The notes under the pieces: model-generated
Databases searched by the model: none
What the model was told of the DNA's origin: nothing
What the model saw: the letters and a program-made list of their open reading frames with translations, nothing else
Program-made: the position numbers and the translations under genes
In this document: positions 18,857 through 57,582 of the stretch, one piece after another
Numbering within the stretch: the stretch's first letter is position 1
Layout: every line of letters begins with the position of its first letter
Assembly (NCBI GenBank): GCA_009746045.1
Contig: RPFO01000240.1
Span: forward strand, 1 to 64,000
DNA from: Mesostigma viride
Lineage: Eukaryota > Streptophyta > Mesostigmatophyceae > Mesostigmatales > Mesostigmataceae
DNA: 64,000 bases
Reading direction: 5' to 3'

Positions 18857-18928
<72 letters not shown>

Positions 18929-29325: not shown

Positions 29326-29339
29326 TGGGGCCGGTCGCC

Positions 29340-30964: not shown

Positions 30965-31036
30965 GGGTGGTCCCACGCGGAATGGGGTCATTTTTGGCGC
31001 ATTTTGCAAGAAAAAAACGCTAGTTTCAATCGTCCG
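30965..31036 (+). repeat. Left terminal inverted repeat of the DNA transposon
   Basis: The first 23 bases match the right end perfectly. A gap of about 12 bases follows, then about 35 bases of near identity (TTGCAAGAAAAAAACGCTAG). Inside it, CGTCCGATCGCG occurs twice as a subterminal direct repeat (31031 and 31063). Bases 31037-31247 are non-coding. Confidence 0.9.
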
Positions 31037-31247
31037 ATCGCGTTTTTTTGCGCGAATTTGGCGTCCGATCGCGTATTTTCGAGCTAATTTGGTGTCATAA
31101 TGCTTAATTCATGTCAATTTGAGCGTACATTCCACATCGAGAGGCTTGAAAGTTAGTAATTCATGTAAATTTTACGTGGAGAGACTCGACATCATCCTAA
31201 CCTTTGTATTAACCATAGGACGAGCATTGCTAGCGCATGTCCAAGTG

Positions 31248-31781
31248 CTAACTTTCCCTCAAGCTTAATTTCGAAGGCCTCTTCCGTAATTTCGCTTCCG
31301 CGATCTGCTGTTCCGTTTTCGAGTTCCTCCTCTTCTTATCGATCTCCTTTGCAGGCGCCCAGACTTCCACATCCTTCCAGCTCTTGCCATCCGTCAGCTT
31401 TACCACCTTCATCGCGTAGTCCAGCGGCATCCACCACAACTTGTTCTTCAACTTCCCTCCCTTCTCCCCCTCAGCGAAAAACTTAAATGCGACGTCCCTC
31501 CACTTGGTGTCGTATCCAGACACCTGCCCATAAAGCATGACGTCTTCTAGCTTGGCATACATTGGCGTAGCCGTATCCTTGTTCCCTGCTTGCATAATGG
31601 CTGAAGTCCACCCATCACACCAAAAGGCCTCTGGTGCTCCGAACCCCATTTCCCCGTCCATAAGTCTCATTTCCAACGTGGGCTTCTCATCATCCTCATC
31701 GCCCGCCTGACTGTCTTCCGCCCCCTTAGGCTCCTCCCGTCCGGAAGTGTCAGCATGTACAGCCGCTGGTCCGAAGCCCAC
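31248..31781 (-). CDS. Cargo gene, last exon, distal part (after Copia-1)
   Basis: The C-terminal 177 codons of the cargo gene. The exon starts at 37777 and is split by Copia-1. Across the insertion the frame reads ...RLANVAV then GFGPAAVHADTSG once the CCCAC duplicate is removed. The product ends with a compact region containing FWCDGWTSAIMQAGNKD, a Trp-rich stretch (LWWMPLDYAMKVV) and a basic tail (KEIDKKRRNSKTEQQIAEAKLRKRPSK) that could be a nuclear signal. No family is recognised. The frame is open with no internal stop, so apart from Copia-1 this end is intact. Confidence 0.65.
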   Translation of the reverse strand: MGFGPAAVHADTSGREEPKGAEDSQAGDEDDEKPTLEMRLMDGEMGFGAPEAFWCDGWTSAIMQAGNKDTATPMYAKLEDVMLYGQVSGYDTKWRDVAFKFFAEGEKGGKLKNKLWWMPLDYAMKVVKLTDGKSWKDVEVWAPAKEIDKKRRNSKTEQQIAEAKLRKRPSKLSLRES

Positions 31782-32559
31782 TGTTGGAAAGGTAGAGGAA
31801 ACTAATGGGTTTTACACAATGCCTTGTGCTTGGCCTTGTTACCCTTGCACCTTGCAGGTGATGAAAGACTGAGCTTGAAGACAATGGAAGAGAGACCAGA
31901 AAAAGAGTTTTATTTCTTAGGCTGAGAGGTTAGGAAAAGAGGTACCTGGCCTTAGGAGCCAGTTTCTTTTTATACCTTTCTAGCTAGGAAGGATGACATC
32001 AGATGCTGATGTCATCATAGAAGCTTGTAGAAACATCTAAGCATATTCCCAGCATATTCTCAGTATATTCCAGGAATATTCCTGGCATATTCCTAGAACA
32101 TTCCAAGGTCATTCTAGAAAGGTTCTAATGAGCTGGCATGACAGTTGATTGCCAAATGTCCTCTGAACAATGTGCCACATCTAATGCTTAATAAAGTGAC
32201 ACATGGTTTCTACTTGGAATGACAAGTGTAATCCAATGAGTCTATCCACTTGTCAGTCAATGGAATGCAACACTTGTCACTATGAGCTTCCAACACATGT
32301 CAGCTCATGGAATGGACACTTGTCTACCAAAGAAGTACACCACTTGTCAAGCATGGAAGTGATGCTACTAGACCAACTCAGGTACAAGAGATCTATGGCC
32401 AAATATAGGACTATGGCACATGAACATTGATCAGCTCATTGAGAGCAATTCATCTAACTTATCAAATCTATCAAATTCTCAGCCCTTGTGAAGTAAAACA
32501 AAGAAGAATAAAGTCAGGCTGGAATATAGTGTGGGCAGGTGGGTATATGATCCCCAACA
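31782..32559 (-). repeat. Copia-1 3' LTR (minus-strand sense)
   Basis: 778 bp; the plus strand starts TGTTGGAAAGG and ends CCCCAACA. The polypurine tract complement CCCCCCTT follows at 32560-32567, as expected for the 3' LTR on the minus strand. Confidence 0.95.
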
Positions 32560-32567
32560 CCCCCCTT
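32560..32567 (-). other. Copia-1 polypurine tract
   Basis: AAGGGGGG on the minus strand, adjacent to the LTR start TGTTGGGG. Confidence 0.8.
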
Positions 32568-32587
32568 AGCCAGCTGAACACAAAGGA

Positions 32588-35500
32588 CTAAGTTGACATG
32601 AGTTTGCCACGCAGGGCAGTGAACCTGGCACGTGAAAGTGCCTTCGTCAGAAGATCAGCAAGCATGTCCTCCCCAGGACAATGCTTCATGGCGATGAGTC
32701 CCCCCTCCACCTTCTCCCGGATGAAATGGAAACGCACGTCAATGTGCTTCGTGCGCTTGGGATGAACAGGGTCACGAGCGAGTGCCACGGCGCCTGTGTT
32801 GTCGCAGAAGACAGGCGTGGGCCCCTGAACTGGATGCCCCAGCTCCCCCAACATGTGCCTCAGTGGAAGCACTAGCTGGGTTACGCTGCTAGCAGCAATG
32901 TACTCCGCCTCGCAGGAAGACAGGGCGGTAACGTGCTGCTTGCGGCTGCACCACTCGACTGCGGCCCCCCTGAACATCACTACATTGCCAGAGACAGATC
33001 TGCGTGTCTCAGGGCAGTTCCCCCAATCGGCATCCGTCCACCCCTCCAGCCCCCCTTGGCCACCATAGCGCAGTCCCAAATCCTTGGTGTGGACAAGGTA
33101 GCGCACCACTCGCTTGGCCAGCTCCAAGTCGCCCTCCGTGGGTGCCTGCATGCATTGGGCCAGCTGGTTGACAGCAAAAGCAATGTCTGGGCGCGTCCAT
33201 GTCGCGGCGTACATGAGAGCACCAACAATCTGCTGAAAGAGTTGATGGTTTGGGGCATCACACATTCCCCCCTCGCGACGGGGACTACCAGGCACTATAG
33301 GGGTGTGCACAGGGTGAGGGGTAGAAAGCCCAAAACGGGCAGCAATAGCTTCAATGTAGGGCCGTTGGTGCATGGTAAGGGAACGAGACGCAGGGTCGAT
33401 AGTAAGGGAAACACCGAGGAAAAGAGAGGGATTGTCCGACTCAGTGATTTGAAAAGTATTAGCCAAACGGCGAGACCAGGATGCCAGCCAGGAAGGGGAA
33501 GGATGAGCAGCAAGAATGTCATCGACGTGCACGAACACGAAACCACGAGACGAAGGGTAGTAATACAGGCACGCATCAATTTGGCTTTGGATGGCGCCGT
33601 CAGAAAGAAGGTGTGCACGGAACGTTTTATGCCAATTGCGTGGCGCTTGCTTGATGCCATACAAGCTGCGGTGCAGCTTCCACACAAGCACATCGCCATT
33701 GGCATCCCGCTCTTCAAAGCCAGTAGGGGGACGCACAAAGACATCCTCCTGTAGGGGAGCATAGAGAAAAGCGGTTCGGACATCGAGCTGCTTGACAGTA
33801 AAGCCAGACGTGACAGCTAAAGCAAGAGCAAGTCGCACGGTGGACGCACGAACAGTGGGGGAAAAGACTTCATTAAAGTCGATACCTTCACGTTGGGCAA
33901 AACCTTTCACGACAAACCTGGCCTTGTGACGGCCGTCGGACTTGACAGCAAATACCCACCGGGAAGGGAGGACCTTGGCACCGGCGGGCAAAGTACGCGG
34001 GCTCACAAGCGAGTATACTGCATGATCACGAATGCTATTAATTTCGCTCAACATCGCAGCCCACCACTCTGGACTGTTGTTAGCCTCAGTAAAGGAGACG
34101 GGAAGGGAAACGTCACTGCCAGTAAAATGCACTGTGTCAAAAAGATCACGAACTGACTGGTAATGCGGAAAAAAACGAGCCCATTTAGGCGACACCGTGA
34201 CAGGGGGAGCATAGGTAGTAATCTCCATCGCGAGGGGTTCACGGGTGCTACCGCAAAACATCAGCTCATCAGCAGTTGCCATGGCGACATTACCAGCTGG
34301 GTTACGTCGCAGCGCAGAGATTGTACTTTGCAGTCGAGCAGCACTTGAAGTGGCAGTGACCGGTGGACCAGCAGACAGCTCCCGTGCGTCACTTGGGGAG
34401 ACGTCGTCAGTAGTTAGGACGGGCTGTGAAAAGTTTGGAGCACCGTCGAGCGCCTCCGGAACTGGTCTAGGACTTGGGACGTTGACTGCATCAGGACTTG
34501 GTGCGTCCGCTCCCTCGTGGCGAAGCTCCTCAGGAATATCCCTTCTGGTGGCGTCCAGAAACCTCGCCTGAGACCGGGTGACCGGTCCGCTACGTTCGGC
34601 CAGAGAATTTGGCTGAACTTCTGCTACAGCCGGAAGATCAGTTGGTGAAGTTTCCTCCAGTGCGGCAGAACTTTCCAGAAGCGGCGCAGGAGTTGGCATG
34701 GCTCCATTGCGCCAGGCCTCATTGAAGGTGACATGCAGGCGGCGAATGACATCCTTGGATTCTGGACGGTAAATGAGGTACGCCGGCGATTCCAGATCAT
34801 AGCCGACGAAGATTCCAGGCAGAGCCTTGGCCTCCAGCTTGCCACGTGGGCCCTCCACCCGATAGAAGGCAGGGCAGCCGAAAATTCGAAGATTCGAGAG
34901 ATCCGCATTGCGACCGGTGAGCAGGAAGTGTGGCGTGGCACCTCCAGGATTCGAGCTAGACGGCAGGCGGTTAAGTATATAAACCGCGCAATTGAAGGCT
35001 AGTGCCCAGAATCCTTTGGGCAAACCGGCATGCGTGAGCATTGCCAGTGTCATGCCCATGGCCAGACCCCACAGCCGCTCCGCCACTCCGTTCTGCTCAG
35101 GAGTGTAGGGGCTGGAGAACTCCTGGTGCACTCGGTGTTCAGCGCAGACGGCCCGCCACGCCTGCCCAGTGAAGACTGCGTCGTTGTCGGTCCGGAGAAG
35201 AATCGAACCGTTGTAGAAGGGGCGAATTTCGCGCGCGAGCAGCTGCTGTAGGGCGTCAACAGCCTCGTCCTTGTGTCGAAGCGGAAAGCACCATCGCCAG
35301 CGGGTAGCATCGTCGGTGAAACCGAGCATGTAGCGGGCGCCTCCAATTGCTGGCTGCATCGGCCCGAGAATGTCGCTGTGAAGCTTGGCTCGGGGAACAG
35401 TCGATCGGAGCTGTCCAGGCGAAAATGAGCGCCTCTTGATGAAGCCAGCAGGGCAGGATGGGCAGCCAGGCGATGACAGGCGCCTCGAAAAAAGGTTAGA

Positions 35501-36931
35501 CTCCGGAATGGCGGCCAGCCTCTTGATCCGATCTTCGCCAGCATGCCCAAGACGCCAGTGCCAGAGCAGGCTCGCCGGCCGCTCGATGGCCGTGGCAGCC
35601 ATTGCCGCCTCGTCGCGCTCCGCAGGTAACACGTAGATGTTGTTCTGCAGCGCAATCTTGTGCGTCTCGTTGTCCAGCACCACTGTCTGCTCGGTGAGGT
35701 CGACTTTGTGGCCGTCCTTGGCGAGCTGCCCAGCTGATAGCAGTCGGGCGCTCAAGCCGGGCACGAAGAGCGCACCATTCAGGTGCACATGCTGGTTGGG
35801 CAGTTTGAGCCGAATCGTGCCCACTCCCGTCGCGCGAAGACGTCCTCCTGATCCGACGATGTTCCTAGTGGTGGGGGTGAGGGACACAAAGTCAGTGCGG
35901 CATGGGGACATGTGGCTGCTTGCAGCGGAGTCCAGAACCCAGGCAGGGGGCTTGGGGCTATACTGCGTGAGTGCAGCAGCCTCCTGCGACGGCGCCGACT
36001 CGGCGATGGTGGTGAAGACGAAGCCCTCCGGCAGCTCCGCGGCCTCCTGGGTGTTGTTGGCCACGCTTCCGCCAGGTGAGGTCTCCTTCTTGGTCGCTTG
36101 GTTGCCCCTCCTGCGCTGGTTGCCCCGCCGTCCTTGGTTCTTGCTTCGTGGCTTGAGCTGGGAGTTCTTTTGCCAGCACTGGGTCTCCGCATGCCCACTC
36201 CTGTTGCAGTAGGCGCAGTGCTTCCTCTCACCACCCTTGTTGGCAGTGTGGAAAGCTTGACCTTGGGCTGGCTCCTCCTTGGTAGCTTGAGAAGGCCGTC
36301 CTCCCAGCAGCATGTCCTCCGCCTCCAGCAGCGCAGCCTTGACCTCCTCCAAGCTGTCCTCCTCTTTGAAGTGCGCTGAAATCAGGGCAGGGCGATATCG
36401 GTCAGGCAGGCCGCTCTTGAGGATAGCCGCAAAATCTTGGTCGCTCATGACGCCTCCCACCGCACGGTAGTCCGCCAGCAGCAGCAATCCACGTAGGATA
36501 TACTGCCCCATGGTCTCCCCAGGCTTCATTTGCAGCCGGTGAAGCTGAATCCTGAGGTCCATGCGGTGACTCTTGGTGAGCTTTTGTTGCTCGTAGACCT
36601 CCCTCAGCGTCTTGTAGAGCTTGCTGCCAGATTGGTCTGGCACGAGCGATAGGATGCGCCTCGCTTCTCCCACAAGTGCAGCTGAGATGACAAGGCCAAC
36701 AGCTTGGTCAGCCTTGCGGTCCTGCCTGGTGCCCAGCAGGACGTCCTTAACCTCATAGAAGGAACAGAAACCCTCAAGAGATGTCTTGGTCTCCTCCCAG
36801 CCACGTAGGCTTGTGCCATCGAATTTCAGCACCATCTTGGAGCACACATTCAGCATAGGAGTGTAGTCGACGTCGCTTGCCATGGAGCTTGTAGCTGGGC
36901 TGGGTTTCTTGGTGGTCTTCTTGGAGCTCAT
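32588..36931 (-). CDS. Copia-1 gag-pol polyprotein (1447 aa)
   Basis: ATG at 36931, TAG at 32588. It has the standard Ty1/copia order. UBN2-type Gag lies at the N-terminus with knuckle CAYCNRSGHAETQC near residue 235. Protease VLDSAASSHM is near 330. Integrase zinc site H-x-GH...CPSC is near 470-500, and catalytic motifs LHSDILGP (near 520), RTDNDAVF (near 583) and NGVAERLWG (near 618) follow. RT has KQLDVRTAFLYAPL and FVHVDDILA (near 1136). RNase H has GWTDADWGNC, SSCEAEYIAAS and a C-terminal ADLLTKAL. No stop or frameshift, so it is probably autonomous. It shares no close sequence with Copia-A, whose domain order differs. Confidence 0.97.
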   Translation of the reverse strand: MSSKKTTKKPSPATSSMASDVDYTPMLNVCSKMVLKFDGTSLRGWEETKTSLEGFCSFYEVKDVLLGTRQDRKADQAVGLVISAALVGEARRILSLVPDQSGSKLYKTLREVYEQQKLTKSHRMDLRIQLHRLQMKPGETMGQYILRGLLLLADYRAVGGVMSDQDFAAILKSGLPDRYRPALISAHFKEEDSLEEVKAALLEAEDMLLGGRPSQATKEEPAQGQAFHTANKGGERKHCAYCNRSGHAETQCWQKNSQLKPRSKNQGRRGNQRRRGNQATKKETSPGGSVANNTQEAAELPEGFVFTTIAESAPSQEAAALTQYSPKPPAWVLDSAASSHMSPCRTDFVSLTPTTRNIVGSGGRLRATGVGTIRLKLPNQHVHLNGALFVPGLSARLLSAGQLAKDGHKVDLTEQTVVLDNETHKIALQNNIYVLPAERDEAAMAATAIERPASLLWHWRLGHAGEDRIKRLAAIPESNLFSRRLSSPGCPSCPAGFIKRRSFSPGQLRSTVPRAKLHSDILGPMQPAIGGARYMLGFTDDATRWRWCFPLRHKDEAVDALQQLLAREIRPFYNGSILLRTDNDAVFTGQAWRAVCAEHRVHQEFSSPYTPEQNGVAERLWGLAMGMTLAMLTHAGLPKGFWALAFNCAVYILNRLPSSSNPGGATPHFLLTGRNADLSNLRIFGCPAFYRVEGPRGKLEAKALPGIFVGYDLESPAYLIYRPESKDVIRRLHVTFNEAWRNGAMPTPAPLLESSAALEETSPTDLPAVAEVQPNSLAERSGPVTRSQARFLDATRRDIPEELRHEGADAPSPDAVNVPSPRPVPEALDGAPNFSQPVLTTDDVSPSDARELSAGPPVTATSSAARLQSTISALRRNPAGNVAMATADELMFCGSTREPLAMEITTYAPPVTVSPKWARFFPHYQSVRDLFDTVHFTGSDVSLPVSFTEANNSPEWWAAMLSEINSIRDHAVYSLVSPRTLPAGAKVLPSRWVFAVKSDGRHKARFVVKGFAQREGIDFNEVFSPTVRASTVRLALALAVTSGFTVKQLDVRTAFLYAPLQEDVFVRPPTGFEERDANGDVLVWKLHRSLYGIKQAPRNWHKTFRAHLLSDGAIQSQIDACLYYYPSSRGFVFVHVDDILAAHPSPSWLASWSRRLANTFQITESDNPSLFLGVSLTIDPASRSLTMHQRPYIEAIAARFGLSTPHPVHTPIVPGSPRREGGMCDAPNHQLFQQIVGALMYAATWTRPDIAFAVNQLAQCMQAPTEGDLELAKRVVRYLVHTKDLGLRYGGQGGLEGWTDADWGNCPETRRSVSGNVVMFRGAAVEWCSRKQHVTALSSCEAEYIAASSVTQLVLPLRHMLGELGHPVQGPTPVFCDNTGAVALARDPVHPKRTKHIDVRFHFIREKVEGGLIAMKHCPGEDMLADLLTKALSRARFTALRGKLMST

Positions 36932-36937
36932 GAAGAT

Positions 36938-36950
36938 TCCTCCGATACCA
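36938..36950 (-). other. Copia-1 primer-binding site
   Basis: TGGTATCGGAGGA directly follows the 5' LTR on the minus strand, close to the initiator tRNA-Met primer site TGGTATCAGAGC. Confidence 0.85.
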
Positions 36951-37728
36951 TGTTGGAAAGGTAGAGGAAACTAATGGGTTTTACACAATGCCTTGTGCTT
37001 GGCCTTGTTACCCTTGCACCTTGCAGGTGATGAAAGACTGAGCTTGAAGACAATGGAAGAGAGACCAGAAAAAGAGTTTTATTTCTTAGGCTGAGAGGTT
37101 AGGAAAAGAGGTACCTGGCCTTAGGAGCCAGTTTCTTTTTATACCTTTCTAGCTAGGAAGGATGACATCAGATGCTGATGTCATCATAGAAGCTTGTAGA
37201 AACATCTAAGCATATTCCCAGCATATTCTCAGTATATTCCAGGAATATTCCTGGCATATTCCTAGAACATTCCAAGGTCATTCTAGAAAGGTTCTAATGA
37301 GCTGGCATGACAGTTGATTGCCAAATGTCCTCTGAACAATGTGCCACATCTAATGCTTAATAAAGTGACACATGGTTTCTACTTGGAATGACAAGTGTAA
37401 TCCAATGAGTCTATCCACTTGTCAGTCAATGGAATGCAACACTTGTCACTATGAGCTTCCAACACATGTCAGCTCATGGAATGGACACTTGTCTACCAAA
37501 GAAGTACACCACTTGTCAAGCATGGAAGTGATGCTACTAGACCAACTCAGGTACAAGAGATCTATGGCCAAATATAGGACTATGGCACATGAACATTGAT
37601 CAGCTCATTGAGAGCAATTCATCTAACTTATCAAATCTATCAAATTCTCAGCCCTTGTGAAGTAAAACAAAGAAGAATAAAGTCAGGCTGGAATATAGTG
37701 TGGGCAGGTGGGTATATGATCCCCAACA
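36951..37728 (-). repeat. Copia-1 5' LTR (minus-strand sense)
   Basis: Identical by eye to 31782-32559. Followed outward by the target repeat CCCAC at 37729-37733. Confidence 0.95.
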
Positions 37729-37777
37729 CCCACCGCCACATTTGCCAAGCGAAGTAACTGCTCCACATCCTCCTTAC
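37729..37777 (-). CDS. Cargo gene, last exon, proximal part
   Basis: The exon starts after CTCGCAG (37784-37778). GT completes a Gly codon split by the intron (donor AAGG/GTAAGA at 37901/37900), then KEDVEQLLRLANVAV reads to the Copia-1 edge and on to 31776. The intron is 37778-37900 (123 bp). Matching phase across the intron and across Copia-1 supports the exon. Confidence 0.65.
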
Positions 37778-37900
37778 CTGCGAGCAAACCGATCATGCCA
37801 TCAACGCATGACTAAAATCGAGTTAGTAGAAATCGGACTGCCAACCGTAAAAAATGAAAACACTCGACATAACAGAATTCACTCGCAGATTTTTTCTTAC

Positions 37901-40395
37901 CCTTTTTGGCCTTTTCCTTCGACCTCTGCTCGCAGGTAGACCCCGTCTGGGGGTGGGGGGCAGGCGCCGGGGCGGGTTTGGCGGGCTCGGCAACCTTGGC
38001 AGTCTTCGCGGTCTTGGGTAACTTCTTGGAAGCAACGCGCTCCTTTCCCCCGTCCTCCTCCTCTCCGCCGCCATCCTCCTCCTCCTTCTCCTCCTCATCG
38101 TCCGAATCTGAAAGCACAACTGCTTTTCGACGCCGTTTCTGAGGCAGGGCAGGCTTGGCAGCCTTCCCCACCTTGGCCGATTTCTTGGAAGCAACGTGCT
38201 CCGCAGCCTTCCCACCCTTGGCGGATTTCTTGGTAGCAACGTGCTGCTCCTCCTCCTCCTCCTCCTCCTCCTCCCCCTCCTCCTCCTCAGCATCGTCGTC
38301 CTCCTCCTCCTCCTCCTCCTCACTCAGCATCGTCGTCCGAATCAGCCACTGCCACAAGTTGCTTACGAAGCTGCTTCTTCGGTACCTGAGAAATGGGCTG
38401 AGTCCGCGGGGGAACCCGAAGCGTACTCTTCGGTACTTGAGAACTGGGCAGAGGCGCCGGGGTGGGCAGAGTCGGCAAGGGAACCCGAAGCTGCTTCTTC
38501 GGAACCTGAAAAACGGGCTGCGGCGCGGCAGGCTTGGAAGGCCCACCTCCATCATCCTCAACAAGTGACACGACTGCACGTCGAGTCACTTGAGAAGCGG
38601 GCTTCTTCGCCGCAGGCGGATCCGAATCACCTTCAGGCCCCGTCATCTGTTCGGCCTGCTGCGTTCTCACCTCGACGGGGGTCTCTCCGCGGTTAGACCC
38701 TCCTGCCGGACCTCCATCCCCTCCATCCCCTCCCTCCAACAACTGTTGGTCATCCCTCTCCACCACGGCGGACAATCCCCCAGCTTCGTGGGAAGCTTTT
38801 CGCTTCTTCGCCCTTCCGAGCCTAGGCCCCCATCACCTTCCCCCGTTCAAGCCGCTCCCACAATTCAGTCCCAATCCCGATCCTTTCCGTTATCTCTTGA
38901 AACCCCTTAATCTCCGGCCTGGTACCAAACACGATCACCATCGGTTCGAACCTGGAGAAAAACTCTTGGGCGCAAGCCTTCAGCACATGATCGTAGATCC
39001 CGCCCGGTTGGGGAATGTCCGATTCTGGCGGGCAAGGACCAAACGCCCACCACCTGGACTGAAAGTCAACTCCACTTATCACCCCAAATGTTCGCCAAGT
39101 TCAGCAGGCTCAGGCACGGAAGGGACCTGCCCAAGGGAAAGGGTGGGCTGAAGCTGAGGCAACCTCGCCTGCCACCTGCTTGACGAGCGACTCGTCATCT
39201 TTATCACCGAGGAGGACGTGACAGCAAAACCAGACCCGGCGACGGCCCCAGTCCACACTACGCCACTCATACACAACGTCCCACTCCTCCTTCCCCTTCG
39301 CCTCCTCCTCCTTCTTCGCCACCGTCTCCTTCCCCTTCCCCTTCCCCTTCTCCAGCCCCTTCACCGGCCCCTTCATCGCCGCCTCCTTCACCCCCCTTCG
39401 AGTAATCCAACTTTTGGAGCGTACTTCCTGAACGCTTCCGGAGCCAAAAGTGCCAAACCCACCGTCTTGTCCTCGCTCTCTTTTAGCAGAATCTCCTGAA
39501 AGTCGATCTTGCCACTACTGAGATCCTTTCTCGGAATCCTCAGATGTGCGGCGTGTTTTTTGGCTTTAAGAAGGTAGGCGATGTTCCTCGTTATGATGAC
39601 GGCCACATCCCAAAATTCCCGGTATCTGGCCACAATCTGCTCCCTGCCGACTGGCCGAGGGAGAGGATGGAGATTGAAGACGAGTTCGAAAATATGAGAC
39701 GCCACAAACTCCTTGCCCTTTGCGTCCTTGCATTTCGCTTCCAGCGTCACATCCTCCTTGAATCTGGCGCAAATGGTCAGCCGCAGGCACTCCAGCACAT
39801 CCTTGGCGAACTCCACCAACTTGGTGAGCTTTTCCGGTCCAACCTGGCAGCTCATGATGCAATCGATCACGGCGTCCATCATAGGAAGGCTGGCCAAGTT
39901 CCTGAAAGCGGTCCAAGAGACCTTCTGGCCTTTCTTCTCCCCCTCTGCATTCGCGAATTTGCACCTTTGCATCATCACCTCCTCAGGCGCGGGTTTCGTT
40001 GAGGCAGGATCATCAGTCTGCTCCTGTGTCAGACGGAGAAACGTGTTGGCCAGCGTGCGACTGTAAGCGGAATGCACTGAAGCAATGCTGTGGGCCGGCT
40101 TTTTCTTTCCTTCTGCTTCCTCCTCGTGTACATCCACCGCTGCCGGCTCCACATTCCCTTCCCTTCCCCCCGCTTGCCGCATAGCCGGGAGGATGTACGT
40201 GAGCAGATTGGTATAGTGGCCATCCGCAATATAGTGGCCCTTCCCACGCGTGACTTTGCCGTGTAGATATAGCTTGTTGTAGTTCCACACGTCAAGCAAC
40301 GCCTGGCCCAGCGTACGATCCGCCACGGCTAAGTCCTCCGAATTCGCCCCCTTGGCGATGTCGAACAGCTTCTCCAGCTTGCCGGTCAGCACCGC
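37901..40395 (-). CDS. Cargo gene, large internal exon region with frameshifts
   Basis: Acceptor GTCGCAG before 40395. From 40395 to about 39400 one frame reads AVLTGKLEKLFDIAKG... to RKYAPKVGLLEGG, a helical region of about 330 residues. A G-run near 39396 shifts the frame to VKEAAMKGPVKG (to about 39110). Further changes join segments 39082-38822, 38775-38320 and 38323-37901. The C-terminal half is low-complexity: VPKK repeats, an acidic Asp/Glu tract from a (TCC)n microsatellite (38230-38330), KKSAK repeats, a basic KRRRK then SDSDDEEE. This looks like a nuclear or chromatin-associated protein, which is only composition-based inference. The breaks fall at homopolymers or microsatellites and may be sequencing errors; a small intron near 39080-39120 is also possible. 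Confidence 0.5.
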
Positions 40396-46275: not shown

Positions 46276-46335
46276 TAACGTCAATACAAAAACAAAATTC
46301 CGAGGGTCTACCCGCAGCGAGACCCTTACGACCAC

Positions 46336-47113: not shown

Positions 47114-48235
47114 ATTAAATGATACGTAGCAGCACCCCCCCACATGTATTGATACGTAGCAGCACCCCCCCACGTGTATTGATACGTAGCAGCACCCCCC
47201 CACATGTATTGATACGTAGCAGCACCCCCCCACGTGTATTGATACGTAGCATCACCCCCCCACGTGTATTGATACGTAGCATCACCCCCCCACATGTATT
47301 GATACGTAGCATCACCCCCCCACATGTATTGATACGTAGCAGCACCCCCCCACATGTATTGATACGTAGCAGCACCCCCCCACATGTATTGATACGTAGC
47401 AGCACCCCCCCACATGTATTGATACGTAGCAGCACCCCCCCACATGTATTGATACGTAGCAGCACCCCCCACGTGTATTGATACGTAGCAGCACCCCCCC
47501 ACATGTATTGATACGTAGCAGCACCCCCCCACATGTATTGATACGTAGCAGCACCCCCCCACATGTATTGATACGTAGCAGCACCCCCCACATGTATTGA
47601 TACGTAGCAGCACCCCCCACATGTATTGATACGTAGCAGCACCCCCCACATGTATTGATACGTAGCAGCACCCCCCACATGTATTGATACGTAGCAGCAC
47701 CCCCCCACGTGTATTGATACGTAGCAGCACCCCCCCACGTGTATTGATACGTAGCAGCACCCCCCCACATGTATTGATACGTAGCAGCACCCCCCCACAT
47801 GTATTGATACGTAGCATCACCCCCCCACATGTATTGATACGTAGCAGCACCCCCCCACATGTATTGATACGTAGCAGCACCCCCCCACATGTATTGATAC
47901 GTAGCAGCACCCCCCACATGTATTGATACGTAGCAGCACCCCCCCACATGTATTGATACGTAGCATCACCCCCCCACATGTATTGATACGTAGCATCACC
48001 CCCCCACATGTATTGATACGTAGCAGCACCCCCCCACATGTATTGATACGTAGCAGCACCCCCCCACATGTATTGATACGTAGCAGCACCCCCCCACATG
48101 TATTGATACGTAGCAGCACCCCCCCACATGTATTGATACGTAGCAGCACCCCCCCACATGTATTGATACGTAGCAGCACCCCCCACATGTATTGATACGT
48201 AGCAGCACCCCCCACATGTATTGATACGTAGCAGC
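47114..48235. repeat. Minisatellite array, orientation 2 (30-bp unit)
   Basis: About 37 nearly identical 30-bp units of GATACGTAGCAGCACCCCCC plus CACATGTATT, varying mainly in the C-run (6 or 7) and AGC/ATC. Long ORFs in it are repeat shadows. Orientation flips relative to the preceding array near 47113, so the two together form an imperfect giant inverted repeat. Confidence 0.95.
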
Positions 48236-48236
48236 A

Positions 48237-48965
48237 CAATTTTAGTCAGCCTACCATCCACGTTGCGGCAAAAGATCACCTTTTTTTGTGTTTCGGCAAA
48301 ATGAAGATTTCTTGCAAACTATCGTTATGCAGGCAGGTAGCAACGTCCGATGTTATAATCCGGCAGGTAGCATGCAAACGTCGAAACGATATGAAGGGGA
48401 AAAAAAGCATCAAACAGGAGCACCGATTAGAAACGCAGCAAATGCAGTATGTGCACATCTACACCTATAACCTAACCAGACCAAAGGCATAGCAAACATG
48501 GAAAGGGTGACCCAAGTGAAAGCCTAGCACCACCATGATCGACATGTGCGAGACCAAGAAACGCTCCATGGCAACTAGACTAAAGGGATGGATGCCAGAT
48601 GTGGATTAGGATCGGCTTAGCTGACTCTACCGAGATGTCTGCAGGGTTTAGCTAGCAACGAAAAGAAGGAAGCCAGACATTTTTATCACTCTTGCTGCAA
48701 CATAGAGTTTCTTGCGATGGCAACAAAGACATAGTCGTCGCCCAGCTGGCTAACTGTGTCGTCGGCGTGCATGCGCTGTTTAGTTGCCGTTTTTGATAGA
48801 ACAATTTTAGTCAGCCTACCATCCAGGATGCGGCAAAAGCTCACCTTTTTTTCGTTGTGCGGCGAAAGCAGACCGATTTCCTTGTAAACTTCCGGCACCA
48901 GGCAGGTATCAACGTAGGATTTTATAATCCAGCAGGTAGCATGCAAACGTCGAAACGATATGGCA
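48237..48965. repeat. Direct repeat of ~165 bp (48237-48400 and 48799-48965)
   Basis: Both copies start ACAATTTTAGTCAGCCTACC and end GCAAACGTCGAAACGATATG, with about 15 percent difference. About 400 bp of unique, non-coding sequence lies between. Confidence 0.8.
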
Positions 48966-50061
48966 GCTCGTATCAGCTATGGGGTCTCTCTGCGGCTGCG
49001 CTTCTTTTTCGATGGGCGATGGGACGGTCGCAATTCGCAAACCGGACGCGGCGTCACAGGGCTGAACGGTATTGAAAAAATTGGAAACGTGGCATCCTCG
49101 TTCCTCCCCACGGAACTGAAAACTGGAAGCGCGGCGCTGGTGCAAAAGCTCGATCCCATCTTTTGGAACCAAGCTATATAGCGGATTGGACGACATCCAA
49201 TATGCCGTCACCCGTGCTTGTGGCCGCAGGTATAAAAAGAGACGACCTCCAGCCCATTTACCTGGGAACATTCGGATGTTTGGCTGACATCGTTACCATG
49301 CAGAAATGTACAATGAGGTTCTGGGTTCGATTCCTGGTGTGGTCATGGTAATAAATTTTTTTCTGCACATCTACTGAAATCAGTCATAGCACCAAACGGT
49401 CACGCTGCAGCGAGACGCTATAGCCCTGGAGGCCGCTGATAAACCTGACATCCGGTATGTCTTACTATCATAGATTGCCGAACTATATAATAATAATAGT
49501 CTATACCACTTTTTCTTGTAAATGATTTACTAAATAATGATTCTATATACTTTAACATACCATATTATTAAAGTATGTGGAATTAATCCATGCTATTCAC
49601 AATATATTATAAAATCTTTTGCAAAATATACTGTAATTAGTATATATATTTTCTGATAAACAATTTTATCAATGCTACTGTGTTATTTTTGTTATTCTCG
49701 CCATGCAGGTATCTGAGTGTTCTGGGAGAACTAATAAGAGAATGAGCCGCGAAGGTGAGGAAAACCTGAAATCTTTTCGTCCTTATTGGGGTCTCTCTGC
49801 AGCTAGACCATTTATGACCACAAGCAATAGCTTAAACTCATGGGTCTTGCTGCAGCTAGACCCTCTTTATGGTTGCTATAAAATTAATGAATCAGAAGTC
49901 TGTGATTTAACAATCGCACGCCGCAATCAAGGGTCTAGCTGCAGCGAGACCCCAATCTTGGTTGGGGTATGCTAAGTTCACCACATCAGGTAATCTTTTC
50001 GTCTAACGGAAAAAGCCCCTCTAAGGGTCTAGCTGCAGCTAGACCCCAATCGTGGTAAAAA
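48966..50061. other. Non-coding DNA with a tRNA-like T-arm and palindromes
   Basis: No convincing gene; the 48960-49181 ORF is short and unsupported. GGGTTCGATTCCTGG at 49324-49338 fits the Pol III B-box, in a context (TGGTCATGGTAATAAAT) suggesting a tRNA-derived SINE and not a tRNA gene. 49460-49680 is very AT-rich. Palindrome copies occur at 49397, 49789, 49842, 49931 and 50024. Confidence 0.5.
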
Positions 50062-50382
50062 ATGATACACTTTCGAACTTTGTCTGTAATTGTCGCTTTT
50101 CCCAACGATACTCGATTTGCATGGATTTTGTTATGCCGGTCGTCATGGCATGCAGCACGCGAACGGGTGGGAGTTTTCGCCCTTGCGTCCGGTCGTCCAG
50201 GATTCAGTGCAATTAAGTTGAACACCGGGACGAAGCAGCCAACTGGCGCAAAAAGGGTTTTCGGAGATGAGAACCAGAATCCAGCGCAGCCTGAAGCCAA
50301 GGAAGTCAAGCGGCCGGGAGAATACAAGAAATCAAAGAGGGTTATGACACTTGAGCTCCCAAGAAAACCAGCATTTGATTGA
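50062..50382 (+). CDS. Possible upstream exon of the transposase gene
   Basis: An open frame whose second half (from about 50200) reads like protein: LNTGTKQPTGAKRVFGDENQ then a Lys/Pro-rich segment. CATGCAG at 50148-50154 could be an acceptor. The frame ends at 50382 inside a duplicated block, so any link to 52527 is broken or spliced in a way I cannot trace. Weak call. Confidence 0.25.
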   Translation: MIHFRTLSVIVAFPNDTRFAWILLCRSSWHAARERVGVFALASGRPGFSAIKLNTGTKQPTGAKRVFGDENQNPAQPEAKEVKRPGEYKKSKRVMTLELPRKPAFD

Positions 50383-52483
50383 AAACAATGAGTAGAGCCC
50401 CTGCCAAAGGCAGGTTTAAGTAGTCATCTCGTCTCCCTCGCATGCAGGAGCAAGAGCCCCCCAAGGGTGGGATGGGTGGGAAGAAACAATTACGGGTCAC
50501 AACCCGCCGACCATGCTTATCAAGCCTACCGTCAAAATGGAAAACGGCAAAACCAGAAATATCCTAACGCTGACAATTTAATAATTCAGCCAGCCAGCTC
50601 ATCTGTCACACGTCTGAGCTGTCAGGCCATGTGTACTCTTCGAATGCAACCCTGAACACACTACCCAACCAAGCAGCACACCAATCAATTGGTGAGTGCT
50701 GGTTACATCAGATTTTATTACAACTTTTTGACGCAACTTCCGTCAGCATTCAACACATGGCCGGCCGTTCAAACAAACGGCGCCTGACTTACAAAAGGCA
50801 AAGCTAGTTGCCAGTAGGATTCCCCGGTAAACAACAAGCCGTCCCCATTCGTCTAACAAGCCTTTCTGCATGTACAGCCACAAGGTTGTGGCGGCCCTTT
50901 CTTTCCCGCATGCTGTTTAATAAACTATTTTCAGAGAAATCCGATTATGACACTTGAGCTCCCAAGAAAACCAGCATTTGATTGAAAACAATGAGTAGAG
51001 CCCCTGCCAAAGGCAGGTTTAAGTAGTCATCTCGTCTCCCTCGCATGCAGGAGCAAGAGCCCCCCGATCCACCCCAGTCCCTGGCGCCGTTACCCTCCTC
51101 CCCCGCACTGTCGCCGCTCAGGAAACAAAACTTGATAGGATCACTGTTGCCCCAATAACAGTGAACAAAGAAAAGGAGAAGACCCCCCCCCTCTTCCGAG
51201 CAGCCTCGAGGGTAGCCGCTTCCATAAAAGACCACAAAGTGGGGCGTGTCGCAACATCTCCTTCATGGCGACTCAGCCCGCACAAGGCTATAATAACCCC
51301 CTAAGGGGCCCGACAATAAAAGGTTAGCGAATCCGCGGAGCCGCCTCAGCAAAATATTATTCCGGATAAAAACCCAGAAAATTCGCATTCCGACGCCACC
51401 AGGGTTTGAACCGCTACCTGCCGGGTGCTGAGCAGGGAGAGACGACAAGGCCAGACACTGCCACTGTCAGCCGAGACGCCTTTCCGATACTCGGTTCCTT
51501 TTGTGGGAATTTTGCAAATATATTTTCTTCCGGAACGCAAGAAATTAGCCGGCCGCGCGTCACCCTTATATCCCTCGCTGGCCCATAACAAAAAAGGGCC
51601 GCGCACCAAGCCGAAGGCAGCGCCATGCAGCGCCCTAGGCGGTGGGCCGCTGACTGACTACCAGCGCAGTCTCATGGAATCCAAATTAATCTATTGACCT
51701 TCGCACAGTTTCCGCATCAGCTGCGGACTTCTTAGTCGACATGATTGGCTCCGCTGCTGGAATTACCAGCAGCCGGGGCGGGGCGCCCAGCCCACTTTCT
51801 ATGACCACCGAGACGCTGCCCAGCAAGGTGCCAACCAGAACCACTTGGCACATTGGTAACGCGAAATTTCCGTTCCGTTCAAACCGCCCCTACCTGCCGT
51901 GAAGTCGCAAAGCCCGCGACTTCATAGCAGGCAAGGACGGGGTCTTTGCCTAATTTTCTTTAGCCCCGCCGCCATAGCAGCGAGGGCGCGCATACTGCTT
52001 CAGTGAGCACATTCAAAGAAACAATTACGGGTCACAACCCGCCGACCATGCTTATCAAGCCTACCGTCAAAATGGAAAACGGCAAAACCAGAAATATCCT
52101 AACGCTGACAATTTAATAATTCAGCCAGCCAGCTCATCTGTCACACGTCTGAGCTGTCAGGCCATGTGTACTCTTCGAATGCAACCCTGAACACACTACC
52201 CAACCAAGCAGCACACCAATCAATTGGTGAGTGCTGGTTACATCAGATTTTATTACAACTTTTTGACGCAACTTCCGTCAGCATTCAACACATGGCCGGC
52301 CGTTCAAACAAACGGCGCCTGACTTACAAAAGGCAAAGCTAGTTGCCAGTAGGATTCCCCGGTAAACAACAAGCCGTCCCCATTCGTCTAACAAGCCTTT
52401 CTGCATGTACAGCCACAAGGTTGTGGCGGCCCTTTCTTTCCCGCATGCTGTTTAATAAACTATTTTCAGAGAAATCCGATTAT
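50340..52483. repeat. Tandem duplication with an internal deletion in one copy
   Basis: Block A (GTTATGACACTTGAGCTCCC..., about 120 bp) occurs at 50340 and 50946. Block B (AAGAAACAATTACGGGTCAC...CCGATTAT, about 470 bp) occurs at 50479-50947 and 52015-52483. The order is A-B-A-C-B, where C (51066-52014) is unique. The two units 50340-50945 and 50946-52483 differ by the presence of C. C has no supported gene; a B-box-like GGTTCAAACCC lies on the minus strand near 51400-51410. Confidence 0.85.
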
Positions 52484-52526
52484 CGGGGAATTTTTCGCTG
52501 ACAAGGCGTTTGAAGTGGCTCAGGCG

Positions 52527-53765
52527 ATGACAAAACCCGAGGGGCGGGGGCCGGCATTCGAGCAGATGATTGCTGGCTTTAACTCTAGGGCCGCTGAACT
52601 AGGTCACGGGCTGTATCATGAGGAGGCGAAAAAACTTTACAATCAGGATCGGATGGCAGAACTGAACAGGTTCTGGGTGGCTCGGATTAACGGCTTTTTT
52701 GATGGTCTGACAAAAAGCGACCCAGACAGAGACGTCAGAATGGTGCTGATGTCCACGCTTTACTGTGGTGACGACTTGGAGAAGGAGTTTTCGGCCGCGG
52801 AGTTGGAGAAGCTAACGGGGGCGGACGCCAAGAAGATTCGCGGAATTCGCGCGATTCGAAGGCAGCAGAAGCTGAACTACCTCAGACACGCGCAGGCTCG
52901 CCAGGGGCGCCCTTTGCCGCAATTCGTGATTGACGCGATAGTGGACGCGTGGATGCACGATGATGAGTCGCGCGCCTCCTCCCAGATGAAGGATGTCAAG
53001 CGCACTTACAGCAGGGAGGGTCATGGCAATCGCGGGGTGCTCGTCGCCGTTGAGGGAGCGCGCTATTACATGACCTCCAAGGAGGACATGTACAATCACT
53101 TTCTCGAAAAGCACGCGTACTGGAACAAAAGGAGTGACCAGTATGATAAGGACGTGGGCATTCACGTGGGCTACACGACCTTCTGCAAATACGCGCCCGA
53201 TTGCATCAAGGGCAAGTGGAAGGAGAGGAACCTGTGCGCGTGTGAGAAGCACGTCACCATGCAGTCGGCCATGGGGGCGTGGACCAAGCACTGCAATGCG
53301 AACCACGGCAAGAACTGCAAGTGTGGCGCGGAGTGTGCGGGATGCTCCAAGTACAGACTGCCGGATGGTACTTGCGGAATGTGGAAAGCCATTCGCTCGA
53401 CGGACTGGATCAAGCACTTTCACTGCCCGGTGTCCGCCGAGACTGACGGCAGGGATAACGGGCTGCGTGAAGGGGGCGGAATGGGCGGGGGGATGGAAGA
53501 GGGGGGGGGGGAAGATGAATGGCGGGGACGGGACCTGGAAGACCTCGACATTTCTGAGAGGCTGGTGGAGGACGAAGATGGGGTGCCGAGGACGGAGAGG
53601 GTTCACCGCATACTGAAGATGGCGTGTGTGGAGGGGTTCTGTCCTGAGGAATCATGCGGCATCCATAATAACTGGGTGCAGTGTGATCGGGACAAGAATT
53701 CCACGGAGATTCTGAATTGGTTCAAGTTTGAGATGGTGGAGCAGACTGTGACCCGAGGGGTGAGG
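52527..53765 (+). CDS. Transposase-like gene, exon 1
   Basis: First ATG at 52527 (the frame is open from 52515). 413 codons to donor AGG/GTGAGT, phase 0. The N-terminal half is helical. The second half has Cys/His clusters: TTFCKYAPDCIKGKWKERN, CACEKHVTMQ, HCNANHGKNCKCGAECAGC and a final CVEGFCPEESCGIHNNWVQC. These are likely zinc-binding, as expected upstream of a transposase catalytic core. An acidic Gly/Glu-rich linker follows at about residues 310-345. Open throughout. Part of the N-terminus may be missing because the duplicated block ends at 52483. Confidence 0.72.
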
Positions 53766-53921: not shown

Positions 53922-54698
53922 GGCGAGACCGATGGCAGGGCGGCGAAGAAGGTGAAGCGGCCCGAGCAAGTCCAAATGAGGTCCACCCCAGCTGAGCTGC
54001 GGGACGAGATTCTTAAGAGGTGGGACAAGTTCACCGTGCACTGCTTTACGGCCTGGTCGCAGGCGGATACAATCAAGGATCGGGAGAAGAATCTGAGAGA
54101 GGGGGACGTGCTCGTGCACGGCGACTGGGCCGAGAACTACGAGAACAGCAGCTACGTCCAACTGCAGTCGCAGTACTTCCACAAGCGCAGCCACATCCTG
54201 ATGCCCATGATCGTGCGTTATCGGCTCAACGGCGAGCTGGAAAAGCGCGTCTTCTTTTTCCTGGGGGATTCCAGTATCAAGCGGGGCGAGCGCGCACTCG
54301 TATACGCTCTTCGCAAGATTCTGGAAACCCTGCGGGTAGAAGTAGGGGTAGAGGTGCGAAACCTGTACATGTGCTCGGACAACTGCGCGGTGCAGTTTAA
54401 GTCCAGGTACGTGATTAACCAGATTAACGGTCTGCTCATGGGGGATCCCGACCTGCAGGCCTTTGAGTTCCACTACATGGGGGAGCAGCATGGGAAGGGG
54501 GAGGTGGATGGTCAAGGAGCGAAGTGCAAGTGCGTCTTGAGGGAAATGCAGAGGATTCCCGAAAACCAGCAAATACTTGAGACCCACCAGCTAGTCGCCT
54601 ACTTGAACCAGAACTGGCAGGGCGGCAAGACATCGAGCAGGGAGTCGGCCCGCGCGCGGGCCGAGAACGTCACTCGCCACTTCTTCCTTTTACCCCCG
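53922..54698 (+). CDS. Transposase-like gene, exon 2 (catalytic core)
   Basis: Acceptor GCGAAACAG before 53922 and donor CCG/GTACGG at 54699; phase 0 on both sides. Catalytic candidates (numbered on the spliced protein) are D481 in VLVHGDWAENY, D566 in MCSDNCAVQFKSRYV, and E601 or D609 in GEQHGKGEVDGQG. The pattern D-[WF]-A-E-N-Y, S-D-[NG]-C-x-x-Q-[FY]-K and H-G-K-G-x-x-D-G is one I associate with transposase-derived proteins in animal genomes, but I cannot name the superfamily. The intron before it (53766-53921) has one 22-bp palindrome and the one after (54699-55104) has four. Confidence 0.75.
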
Positions 54699-55104
54699 GT
54701 ACGGAATTTTGTGTTATTTCAGGTTTTAAGACGTCAACTGCCGATGTTCTACAAAAATTCAAACCCAATAAAGGTATCTCTGCAGAGAGACCCTATATAC
54801 TGTCAATGGGTTGCTTTTCTTTTAGGTATGAAATTTCGCTTGTTCTATCGGTATGAAGGGGTCTCTCTGCAGCTATACCCTGTGTCGAATTTCGATCACT
54901 TGATATCTTGTCGTACGTTGTTATTATGATTCGAATGGGGTCTCTCTGCAGCTATACCCTGTGTCGAATTTTGATGACTGTATGTCTTGTCGTTAATTTT
55001 TTTTTTGTAAGGGGTCTCTCTGCAGCTATACCCTGTTTTATTGATTTTTGGTCAATTTTGCTTACTTGAACGGTATTCTTTTTGTCCTAACTATTTGATG
55101 ACAG

Positions 55105-55851
55105 GACGTCGAGTCCGGCCGACGCGCGGAGGTGGAGGAGGTGCCTGGCATCAAGAAGGCGCATTGGTGGCGACTGGACAAGTCCGACCCTGGCCTTTTG
55201 ATGATTAGGCGCTATTCCTGCTACTGTCCGCCCTGTTTGGCTGGGCGGTTTGAGGGATGTCTAAGCGAGTGGTCGTTTATCATCGAGTTCAATGATGCAG
55301 GAAGCTCGATGAAAACTGTCCGTTTGCTGCCACCGAGCCAGCCCAACCCTCCGGTTCGCATGGTGACGCGGGGGGAGCAGCTGAAGGACAAGCGGGAGGC
55401 GATGGGCCGGCAGATGAGACTCCACGACTATGTGGCAGTTCCATCGGACAAGGACACGGATCACGATCCCATCCACCCGTTCTGGTTGGCTGAGGTTGTA
55501 AGCGAAGCCGGGCCGATCGTGTTAGACGAGAACTTCGAGAGGTGGGTCGAGGGCCGGAACGGACGGGAGAAGGAGCTGTTCCTCGCCGGGAATGGCATTC
55601 TTCCCGTTCGGATTTGGAAGCGGGATAAGCATGACCCCCTGCATTTCACGCTCAACGTTGAGGATTGGCCACCGTCACGCCAGCCCGAGCTTGTGAATTG
55701 CTATCTCTGCGTCGCTCCGGCTCTCCGGCTAGAAGCACGCGTGCGCAGCGACGGAATGTGTGCCGACATCAGGATGAGCAAGGAGCTCGACAAGTGGCTT
55801 ACTGCGCTGGTGATCAAGGATGAAGCCCCGGAGGGGCCGGCACCGACTTAA
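55105..55851 (+). CDS. Transposase-like gene, exon 3
   Basis: Acceptor GATGACAG before 55105, TAA at 55849-55851; phase 0. It starts DVESGRRAEVEEVPGIKKAHWWR. It has a Cys cluster (RRYSCYCPPCLAGRFEGC), a central region (LHDYVAVPSD...PFWLAEVV) and an ordered C-terminus ending PEGPAPT. The spliced protein is about 920 aa and has no stop or frameshift, in contrast to the cargo gene. This makes it the best candidate for the enzyme mobilising the 26.6-kb element. Confidence 0.72.
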   Translation, partial: DVESGRRAEVEEVPGIKKAHWWRLDKSDPGLLMIRRYSCYCPPCLAGRFEGCLSEWSFIIEFNDAGSSMKTVRLLPPSQPNPPVRMVTRGEQLKDKREAMGRQMRLHDYVAVPSDKDTDHDPIHPFWLAEVVSEAGPIVLDENFERWVEGRNGREKELFLAGNGILPVRIWKRDKHDPLHFTLNVEDWPPSRQPELVNCYLCVAPALRLEARVRSDGMCADIRMSKELDKWLTALVIKDEAPEGPAPT

Positions 55852-56509
55852 ACAAGAAATTGGGGTCTCGCTGCGGGTAGACGACGCCCTAGTTTCGGCT
55901 CGTATTATATCTTTAGAGTGGGGCTTCAGTAGGGTGTAAAAAGGTGCCCGCATATATTGTATATACTTTTCGAGATCTTTCTGTGGTCAAGTTTAAGGGT
56001 AGTTGATAATTTTTTGCGGCCTTCAATTAACAGTTATTTTTTACTGCAACATAATTTTATGCTGTATATTTAAATAATGATAAGGATTTCGATATTTTTT
56101 TGCACAATCTATTCGACATTTGTTTCTGCAAATGTCGAGAATTTATTGCTCCACCCCCACAAAAAAATCGTTCCGGAACTGTTCGAAGAGAATAGCAATG
56201 ACAGGATTCGAACCCGGGTCCACATTGATGTTCGGAGTGAGGTAGGCCAGCCACCATGTTCTGCACTCAAATCTGGCTCGGGTCCGATCCCTTGCAGTGC
56301 TCTTCGCTTCGAACAGCTCCGGAACAAGTTTTTTGTGGGGTTGGAGCAATAAATACTTATTTGCCGGGCGCAGTTGTCATTCCGCCTAGTACAATTGCGT
56401 CACTAGTACAATTTTTGTCTGGGTACGGTACGAACCAATAACGCAATATTTAGTATCTAATCGCCGCTGCTCTTGCTGAATTTTAACCGGAAGCTGAAGA
56501 AGGTGTCCG
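55852..56509. other. Non-coding DNA holding a 214-bp MITE-like element
   Basis: A palindrome copy is at 55863. 56141-56354 has about 48-bp inverted ends (ATTTATTGCTCCA... and its complement, with about five mismatches). Its left half holds GGATTCGAACCCGGG at 56203, a perfect Pol III B-box/T-arm on the minus strand. No clear target repeat was found. Confidence 0.65.
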
Positions 56510-57112
56510 GTGAAGCGAATAGTAGTGACTGGTGGTCGTGCCCTTCCATTACTCCTTATCGACAAATTTTGGGTTCTACCTGCAGTGATAACCCTTGCGC
56601 GTCTGGCTGTCGGGGTCACCAATTTCCTGTCGATTGCAAGCAGCCAAGCTTGCCGAAATTTAACACTGTCACAAATGGAGCAGAGCGATATTTTCGGTTC
56701 TCAGCATACCTATGTGATGGTCGACAAAAATGAGCACGCTGCAAACATCAGAATTGATGTAGAGTTGCTCGGACCTTCTGCACAGTGGGGTGCAGGTGTC
56801 ATTGCGTTCGGCAATGGCATGATCGATCTGGTGCCACCCGATTCAGATTTGAACCCTGCTTACCAATGCGTGCCTGACAATCAGGCGAGAGTGGTGGTGG
56901 AGAGCACGGAAATTCCGGGCTCTCCCAATGTATCAATGATGCGCCTGAGGGCTGAGGCCCAGCAGGAGTTCCTGGCTGCTGCGGAGAACGGCGGGGCCAA
57001 GTGGAACACCAAAATGTATACAGGCGAGCCTCCCAACTACAGGGGAGACCTGTACCAGGGAGTGTACTCCTTCGGCGATTTTGACATCGACGGATGGGGC
57101 ACCTTTTTCTAG
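56510..57112 (+). CDS. Hypothetical protein ORF near the right end of the DNA transposon
   Basis: An open frame of 200 codons starting with GTG; the first internal ATG is at 56675 (MEQSDIFGSQH), giving 146 codons. The part after it looks like an ordered beta-rich protein: HTYVMVDKNEHAANIRIDVE, GAGVIAFGNGMIDLVPPD, and an aromatic C-terminus (YQGVYSFGDFDIDGWGTFF). It may be the last exon of a spliced gene. I recognise no domain. It lies inside the element, so it is likely cargo. Confidence 0.4.
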   Translation: MKRIVVTGGRALPLLLIDKFWVLPAVITLARLAVGVTNFLSIASSQACRNLTLSQMEQSDIFGSQHTYVMVDKNEHAANIRIDVELLGPSAQWGAGVIAFGNGMIDLVPPDSDLNPAYQCVPDNQARVVVESTEIPGSPNVSMMRLRAEAQQEFLAAAENGGAKWNTKMYTGEPPNYRGDLYQGVYSFGDFDIDGWGTFF

Positions 57113-57519
57113 GCGCAATGCCTAAGTTGTCAAATACTCGACAATGTCGACTTTATGTGCACATATTTATATTCATTGAGAATGATAAAATTACGGACAT
57201 GTGCACATTTATATACTGATTCAATAAAAAATTTCGGCAACTTTGTTCCCGGCATTGATAATCAAAAGCTGCTAGCAGGCCAAGGACTTCAAAAGTGGCA
57301 ATAGATCGATGTAGGTCGTCGCTAAACTTGTCTAGTCGTCATATTTCGGTCGCAAAATTCGTGCGTGGCCTGCAGGCATCGGACAAAGTGCACGCAAAAG
57401 CAGGAGTCGGTTGAGTTCGAAGCACGGCAGACAAAAAATTTCGGCGCAGAGTCCGTCCGGCGAAAAATTCGCTCGGCTGCCAAATTTTCGGCAAGAATTT
57501 CGGCGCAATGTCCGGTTTT
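57113..57519. other. Subterminal non-coding DNA of the DNA transposon
   Basis: No gene. Short CGCCGAAATT-type and AAAATTTC-type repeats approach the right end. Confidence 0.5.
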
Positions 57520-57582
57520 CGGACGATTGAAATTAGCGTTTTTTTCTTGCAAAAATCTACCCCATTCCGCGTGGGACCACCC
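57520..57582 (-). repeat. Right terminal inverted repeat of the DNA transposon
   Basis: Reverse complement of the left end, 63 bp. Subterminal DNA (57420-57520) is rich in CGCCGAAATT-type short repeats. The next bases, GTTG, are the target repeat. Confidence 0.9.

Follow-up and report, generated by a model that had tools for sequence, protein, structure and literature searches.

Giant DNA transposons have already been described in algae. In Ectocarpus, KDZ, EnSpm, and Sola1 elements of more than 10 kb carry accessory genes and nested insertions, often with a broken transposase gene, and the available part of the same account also lists an active KDZ element of 31.7 kb in Chlamydomonas (PMC12477816). 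The Sola superfamily, which has a DDD transposase, is described with 4-bp target repeats, terminal inverted repeats (TIRs), and sizes up to over 15 kb (PMC10741241), and criteria are available for EnSpm and for Zisupton (the KDZ group), which makes 8-bp repeats (PMC12730594). The window analyzed here, a 64,000-bp stretch of Mesostigma viride DNA (assembly GCA_009746045.1, contig RPFO01000240.1, positions 1–64000, forward strand), contains a TIR-bounded element at 30965..57582 with two divergent genes and nested insertions. With a probability of roughly 0.88, it is a copy of a large (~18.5 kb) TIR cut-and-paste DNA transposon family of M. viride with 4-bp target repeats, for which a DDE/DDD transposase, an accessory protein, and palindromic protein-binding sites are proposed. 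The ends of the element are as follows.

30961..30964, no strand: left target-site duplication GTTG, read directly outside the left end
30965..31037, plus strand: left TIR, GGGTGGTCCCACGCGGAATGGGGT..., from the end alignment
57519..57582, minus strand: right TIR, from the end alignment
57583..57586, no strand: right target-site duplication GTTG, read directly outside the right end

The original prediction, made from the letters of the window, had placed matching inverted repeats flanked by GTTG at 30965 and 57582, and the alignment of the two ends confirmed them: 24 bp are perfect, followed by 37 equal positions out of 40 aligned, with gaps totaling 9 bp, and the termini read GGG...CCC. The proposed restoration of a Copia-A frame by excision was also borne out, as deletion of the element with one GTTG leaves a frame open for 241 codons through the junction PSEWL^FGTPTGE, and the frame downstream of the insertion site matches a Copia-type reverse transcriptase. 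Joining the flanks of the neighboring Gypsy element did not produce a long Copia-A frame, and the host frame is therefore damaged in other ways. The predicted size of 26.6 kb needs revision. The element spans 26,618 bp with its nested insertions included, of which 8.1 kb belong to two younger elements, leaving 26,618 - 5,952 - 2,138 = 18,528 bp.

When the whole assembly (439.9 Mb in 2243 contigs, where the window is C2111:1-64000) was searched with the 136 bp of the left end, 468 candidates emerged, of which 40, including the window, were scored, and all 40 left ends matched at 98–100%. The 20 loci fetched (the window and 19 others) all start at one base, 17 with an exact 20-mer and three with one mismatch, in agreement with the base-exact boundaries claimed earlier. 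Their flanking 4-mers take 19 different forms, none of the 190 locus pairs is more than 42% alike over the 100 flanking bases nearest the element, and elsewhere within the 500-bp flanks there are two short weak matches. Homology running past the element was not seen at the left end, and right ends were compared in the copies with both ends only. Among seven copies read 20–30 kb inward, three had a right end with 4 bp equal to those at the left (17,123 bp, TGCC; 10,383 bp, AGAG; 10,314 bp, TGCT), and no right end was found in the other four, two of which still had none at 39.6 kb. For 15 further copies, the right end was predicted from the 10.3-kb length and a 0.9-kb stretch was read in each; four had the right end (lengths 10,164–10,562 bp; equal repeats TCCC, TGCA, TGCG, and TGAA), and none was present within that stretch in the other 11. 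Equal 4-bp target repeats of varied sequence were found in all eight copies with both ends read, window included, so the proposed search for copies with such repeats and a constant end base was positive. The ends may be present singly in copies for which no partner end was found.

The two genes run in opposite directions from the center of the element, and their modeled parts, together with the two insertions that interrupt them, are listed below.

49709..49754, plus strand: transposase exon 1, start approximate (tblastn of P0001; ends set by eye)
50156..50345, plus strand: transposase exon 2, first part (sequence comparison; start set by eye)
52484..53765, plus strand: transposase exon 2, second part
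53922..54698, plus strand: transposase exon 3, putative catalytic core (motifs and structure prediction)
55105..55851, plus strand: transposase exon 4
37734..45785, minus strand: second gene, multi-exon, with several frame breaks in the window copy; 96.9% identical in DNA to sister copy c1435 over 7.1 kb
44366-43311, 43203-43141, 43004-42922, 42544-42002, 41812-40650, and 40395-39397, minus strand: second-gene exon pieces, among others
31248..31781, continuing at 37734-37811 beyond the Copia, minus strand: second-gene last exon, 3' part, whose frame runs on across the Copia site
31782..37728, minus strand: nested Copia long terminal repeat (LTR) retrotransposon, not part of the element, with mismatch-free LTRs and CCCAC target repeats
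50346..52483, no strand: nested non-autonomous PAT-like (DIRS-order) element, not part of the element, 2,138 bp, with TTAT at both ends

The nested Copia is 5.9 kb long and interrupts the last second-gene exon; its LTRs match perfectly over 781 bp, or 778 bp when cut back to TG...CA ends. In the sister copy c1435, the Copia site is empty with a single CCCAC, and the last exon is continuous at 97.8% amino acid identity. Split direct repeats in an A1-B1A2-B2 layout are typical of PAT elements, and the 2,138-bp insertion, which splits transposase exon 2, has such repeats (A-B-A-B, 121 and 468 bp) in identical copies, suggesting that it is young. It lacks the tyrosine recombinase and reverse transcriptase of such elements and has no frame of at least 150 codons, and it would therefore be a non-autonomous PAT-like member. 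The sister copy c1469 has an empty site with a single TTAT and a continuous exon. The empty sites in the sister copies indicate that both the Copia and the PAT-like sequence are insertions into the element. The initial impression of an intact element was thus mistaken: the Copia, the PAT-like insertion, and frame breaks interrupt both genes, and the window copy, in the manner of the transposase-free relatives, could move only with a transposase from another copy.

In the inverted sister copy c1469, the order of the parts present is conserved: the right end is followed by the transposase, the minisatellites, and the second gene's 5' exon. The copy c1435 has kept the left terminus together with the greater part of the second gene. 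None of the traced copies was followed end to end with both genes, so the expected full-length two-gene copies were recovered in parts. Contig C1469 holds a cluster of family members, nested or inverted, within 50 kb: a left end is followed by a second copy in reverse and then by second-gene DNA lying in the original direction again. One 4-kb stretch searched for the left end of the inverted copy did not contain it and holds second-gene DNA in the other orientation.

The transposase gene lies on the plus strand, begins near 49709, and comprises four or more exons. The original model of a spliced, DDE-like gene therefore stands in kind, while its three exons and its start at 52527 do not. A first structure model of the whole protein (P0002), with a mean predicted local distance difference test (pLDDT) score of 36, was used for strand order only. 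Two acidic residues follow the expected strands, and the third may be one of E700, E706, and D708; the core is predicted to be RNase H-like. The 50 VIA-align matches listed comprise 48 Argonaute/PIWI proteins and two designed proteins, and the lack of a transposase among them is not evidence of absence. Relatives of the transposase were found among M. viride gene models only. Scans of both gene products against Pfam, NCBIfam, and PHROGs gave no match above cut-off, a sequence search of the PDB gave none, and neither did searches for transposase relatives in phages or plasmids, or scans of prokaryote genomes and viral contigs with two to six short peptide patterns.

With inverted termini at fixed bases and a fixed 4-bp target duplication in 8/8 copies with both ends read, the element behaves as a TIR cut-and-paste transposon. 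EnSpm/CACTA (CMC) elements have CAC termini and a 3-bp target repeat, in contrast to the GGG termini and 4-bp repeats found here, and their C(2)C and H(3-4)H motifs, placed between the second D and the last E, were not recovered, since residues 665-708 of P0002 lack a CxxC, if the third acidic residue lies within E700-D708. The 8-bp duplication of KDZ (Zisupton) likewise differs from the 4 bp observed, as do the TG...CA termini of Ginger (PMC10741241) from GGG...CCC. The element is a DDE-like cut-and-paste element by its mode of action and falls outside EnSpm, Zisupton, and Ginger by the features tested. It may tentatively be filed as a giant member of the Sola superfamily, at odds somewhat short of even, an assignment that concerns classification only and is compatible with the explanation preferred here. 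The 4-bp repeats, size, and TIRs fit the available Sola description (PMC10741241), and a 21.5-kb Sola1 with an accessory gene on the opposite strand occurs in Ectocarpus (PMC12477816). A weak Pfam match to DUF7869, a domain that may or may not be linked to Sola, covers the second acidic residue and the HGKGEVDG motif (E 0.12, below cut-off). However, no curated family reached its cut-off, and the likeness to Sola is one of published description.

Outside the exons, the element carries its own repeats.

45863..46325, no strand: cluster of six palindromic sites GGGTCTNNCTGC/GCAGNNAGACCC, upstream of the second gene
46338..48237, no strand: opposed 30-bp minisatellite arrays of 26 and 37 units (46338-47121 and 47120-48237), between the divergent genes
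49789..50046, no strand: four palindromic sites in transposase intron 1
54772..55033, no strand: four palindromic sites in transposase intron 3

All 26 palindromic sites in the window lie inside the element, compared with 1, 3, and 1 matches in three Markov simulations, and a stricter pattern gave 18 inside and none outside; both the confinement of this family to the element and the central opposed minisatellite had been correctly predicted. The sites occur upstream of both genes, in all three transposase introns tested, and in five of seven second-gene introns, and 25 of the 26 are non-coding by the exon model. Variation in one arm is independent of that in the other (p 0.42, or 0.41 with tandem copies removed), and an RNA-hairpin reading is disfavored because the arms do not co-vary.

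Three complete transposase-free copies of 10.4, 10.3, and 17.1 kb were read through. Each keeps the ends and contains, by the stricter pattern, 20 palindromes in arrays of 9 and 11, with none in 41.4 kb outside. In c1579, two opposed minisatellites with a 30-bp period (38 and 37 units, 3422-4558 and 6517-7597) are flanked on their outer sides by the palindrome arrays (2800-3318 and 7712-8343); in this copy, the one compared with the window copy, period and opposition are equal and the unit sequence is different. The 10.4-kb copy (0.08-10.46 kb) is symmetric, running from end through palindrome array and minisatellite to the center, and on through the opposed minisatellite and palindrome array to the other end. 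The transposase-free copies also hold remnants of the second gene's last exon, at 61% and (inverted) 53% amino acid identity, and 67 residues from its exon 2 (43%), identities that point to derivation from a diverged relative rather than from the window copy. The copy c1579 is 99.97% identical to c1691 over 8.8 kb and likewise to c1923 over 6.0 and 2.7 kb. The three occupy different sites with different target repeats, which together with their near-identity suggests that this group moved very recently and, by its sequence, marks the family as recently active.

The retention of ends and palindromes in transposase-free relatives, and of opposed minisatellites in the one examined for them, suggests that the layout is probably a working cis-structure. 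The repeats could instead be functionless by-products of local duplication and replication slippage, a reading we consider possible and rather doubtful. Several palindromes lie within tandem units of 57–120 bp, so that their number can rise by duplication alone, and nearly all fall in DNA modeled as non-coding. Against this, the two-gene element and a transposase-free relative share the layout despite a different minisatellite unit, and the palindromes are absent from the flanks and the nested elements.

From 45785, the second gene is read on the minus strand, in the direction of the element's left end. The claim of a multi-exon gene is supported by codon statistics, as 9/9 pieces score best in the predicted frame under the transposase codon usage, and is qualified by the Copia and frame breaks that disrupt the gene here. 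Four of the seven introns entered (c1, c2, c3, and c6) show GT and AG, the coordinates of the other three being rough. The frame break at 41063 is absent from c1435, where exon 7 is one open frame and exon 2 has a break of its own. The product would have an arginine-serine-proline-rich start and acidic and basic low-complexity stretches, and protein-family scans recognized no domain in it; one low-complexity piece matched BSP_II at E 0.0025, below the BSP_II cut-off. A role unrelated to transposition, as expected of a captured passenger (cargo) gene, is unlikely. The gene's very large size and the lack of similarity to any transposon protein found would suit a passenger, and the Ectocarpus accessory genes are mostly of unknown function in the available text (PMC12477816). 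However, parts of it, some of them on C1469, occur in at least two other copies at 93–97% DNA identity, and remnants persist in the transposase-free relatives; the gene has thus long been part of the family. No host relative was found either; a search of a large protein set gave none at E<=1 among 7992 candidates, a weak result in which low-complexity words probably filled the list. An integrated virus or Polinton-like element is highly improbable: the element is large and multi-gene with inverted termini, yet scans of its own proteins gave no polymerase, capsid, or packaging match, the nested Copia apart, and scans of viral contigs turned up no relative of either the transposase or exon 43311-44366.

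For the cut-and-paste transposon preferred here, an RNase H-fold DDE/DDD transposase encoded by the right-hand gene and supplied by an intact copy would bind and cut the terminal repeats, and insertion would follow with a 4-bp stagger at varied targets. The protein of the left-hand gene is most likely an accessory factor of the transposon, and the palindromes, with their two half-sites, may serve as DNA-binding sites for the transposase or the second protein. That the second protein binds them is a guess, and one more probably wrong than right. A bolder reading, which we hold to be improbable, would give the family a new lineage of its own at superfamily rank, made up of DDE transposons of streptophyte algae that duplicate 4 bp. 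In this two-protein system, the transposase would act at the ends and the second protein would bind an internal core of palindromes and opposed 30-bp minisatellites, an arrangement that transposase-free relatives retain even as the minisatellite sequence changes.

Near the right end, the element has one further candidate gene.

56675..57112, plus strand: small 145-codon frame, possibly a third gene (open reading frame list; codon score best in its own frame)

At 56140-56370, short inverted arms surround a stretch that resembles a degenerate tRNA-derived repeat by eye; ARAGORN found no tRNA there or elsewhere in the window, and an Rfam scan of the window was likewise empty. Elsewhere in the window, two 10-kb inverted arms (3-9967 and 11910-21941) are 97.7% identical, lie ~1.9 kb apart, and each contain a GGTG/CCAC tetranucleotide array. 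They also hold short arrays of 30-bp period (6984-7083 and 14836-14913) that resemble by eye the minisatellite unit of the transposase-free relatives. The Gypsy element (20129-30635, ATGGG target repeats) encodes a polyprotein in which reverse transcriptase, RNase H, and integrase are joined by a PHD finger and a C-5 cytosine DNA methylase.

With the M. viride element, a recently amplified family of giant DNA transposons, its ends known to the base, is available from near the root of the streptophyte lineage that includes the land plants. Its parasitic relatives show which parts are kept in cis, and the role of accessory genes and internal repeats in giant DNA transposons becomes directly testable. 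Among known systems, En/Spm-CACTA is a two-protein element (TNPA and TNPD) with repeated binding motifs. The M. viride element resembles it in having two predicted proteins and repeated motifs and differs from its CAC ends, 3-bp repeat, and C(2)C pair. No description of this element was found in literature searches, and the available parts of the Mesostigma genome papers (PMC6947507, PMC7027972) do not mention such a family. The original statement that no described family has this set of features is therefore fair for the exact set within these searches, and too broad for giant algal transposons with an opposite-strand accessory gene and nested insertions, which are in print (PMC12477816); judging from the accessible text, the kind, not the family, is already described in algae. 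Compared by description, Sola shares the 4-bp repeats, the TIRs, and a size range including more than 15 kb, and the Chlamydomonas KDZ element is likewise a very large green-algal DNA transposon. The second gene lacks the ParB or methyltransferase matches of the Ectocarpus giants, for which the available text mentions neither internal palindromes nor opposed minisatellites (PMC12477816), and the transposase is not assignable here to their Sola1, KDZ, or EnSpm groups. In common with those elements, the M. viride transposon exceeds 10 kb, carries an accessory gene (on the opposite strand, as in the 21.5-kb Sola1), harbors nested transposable elements, and has a transposase gene that is broken, as theirs often are.

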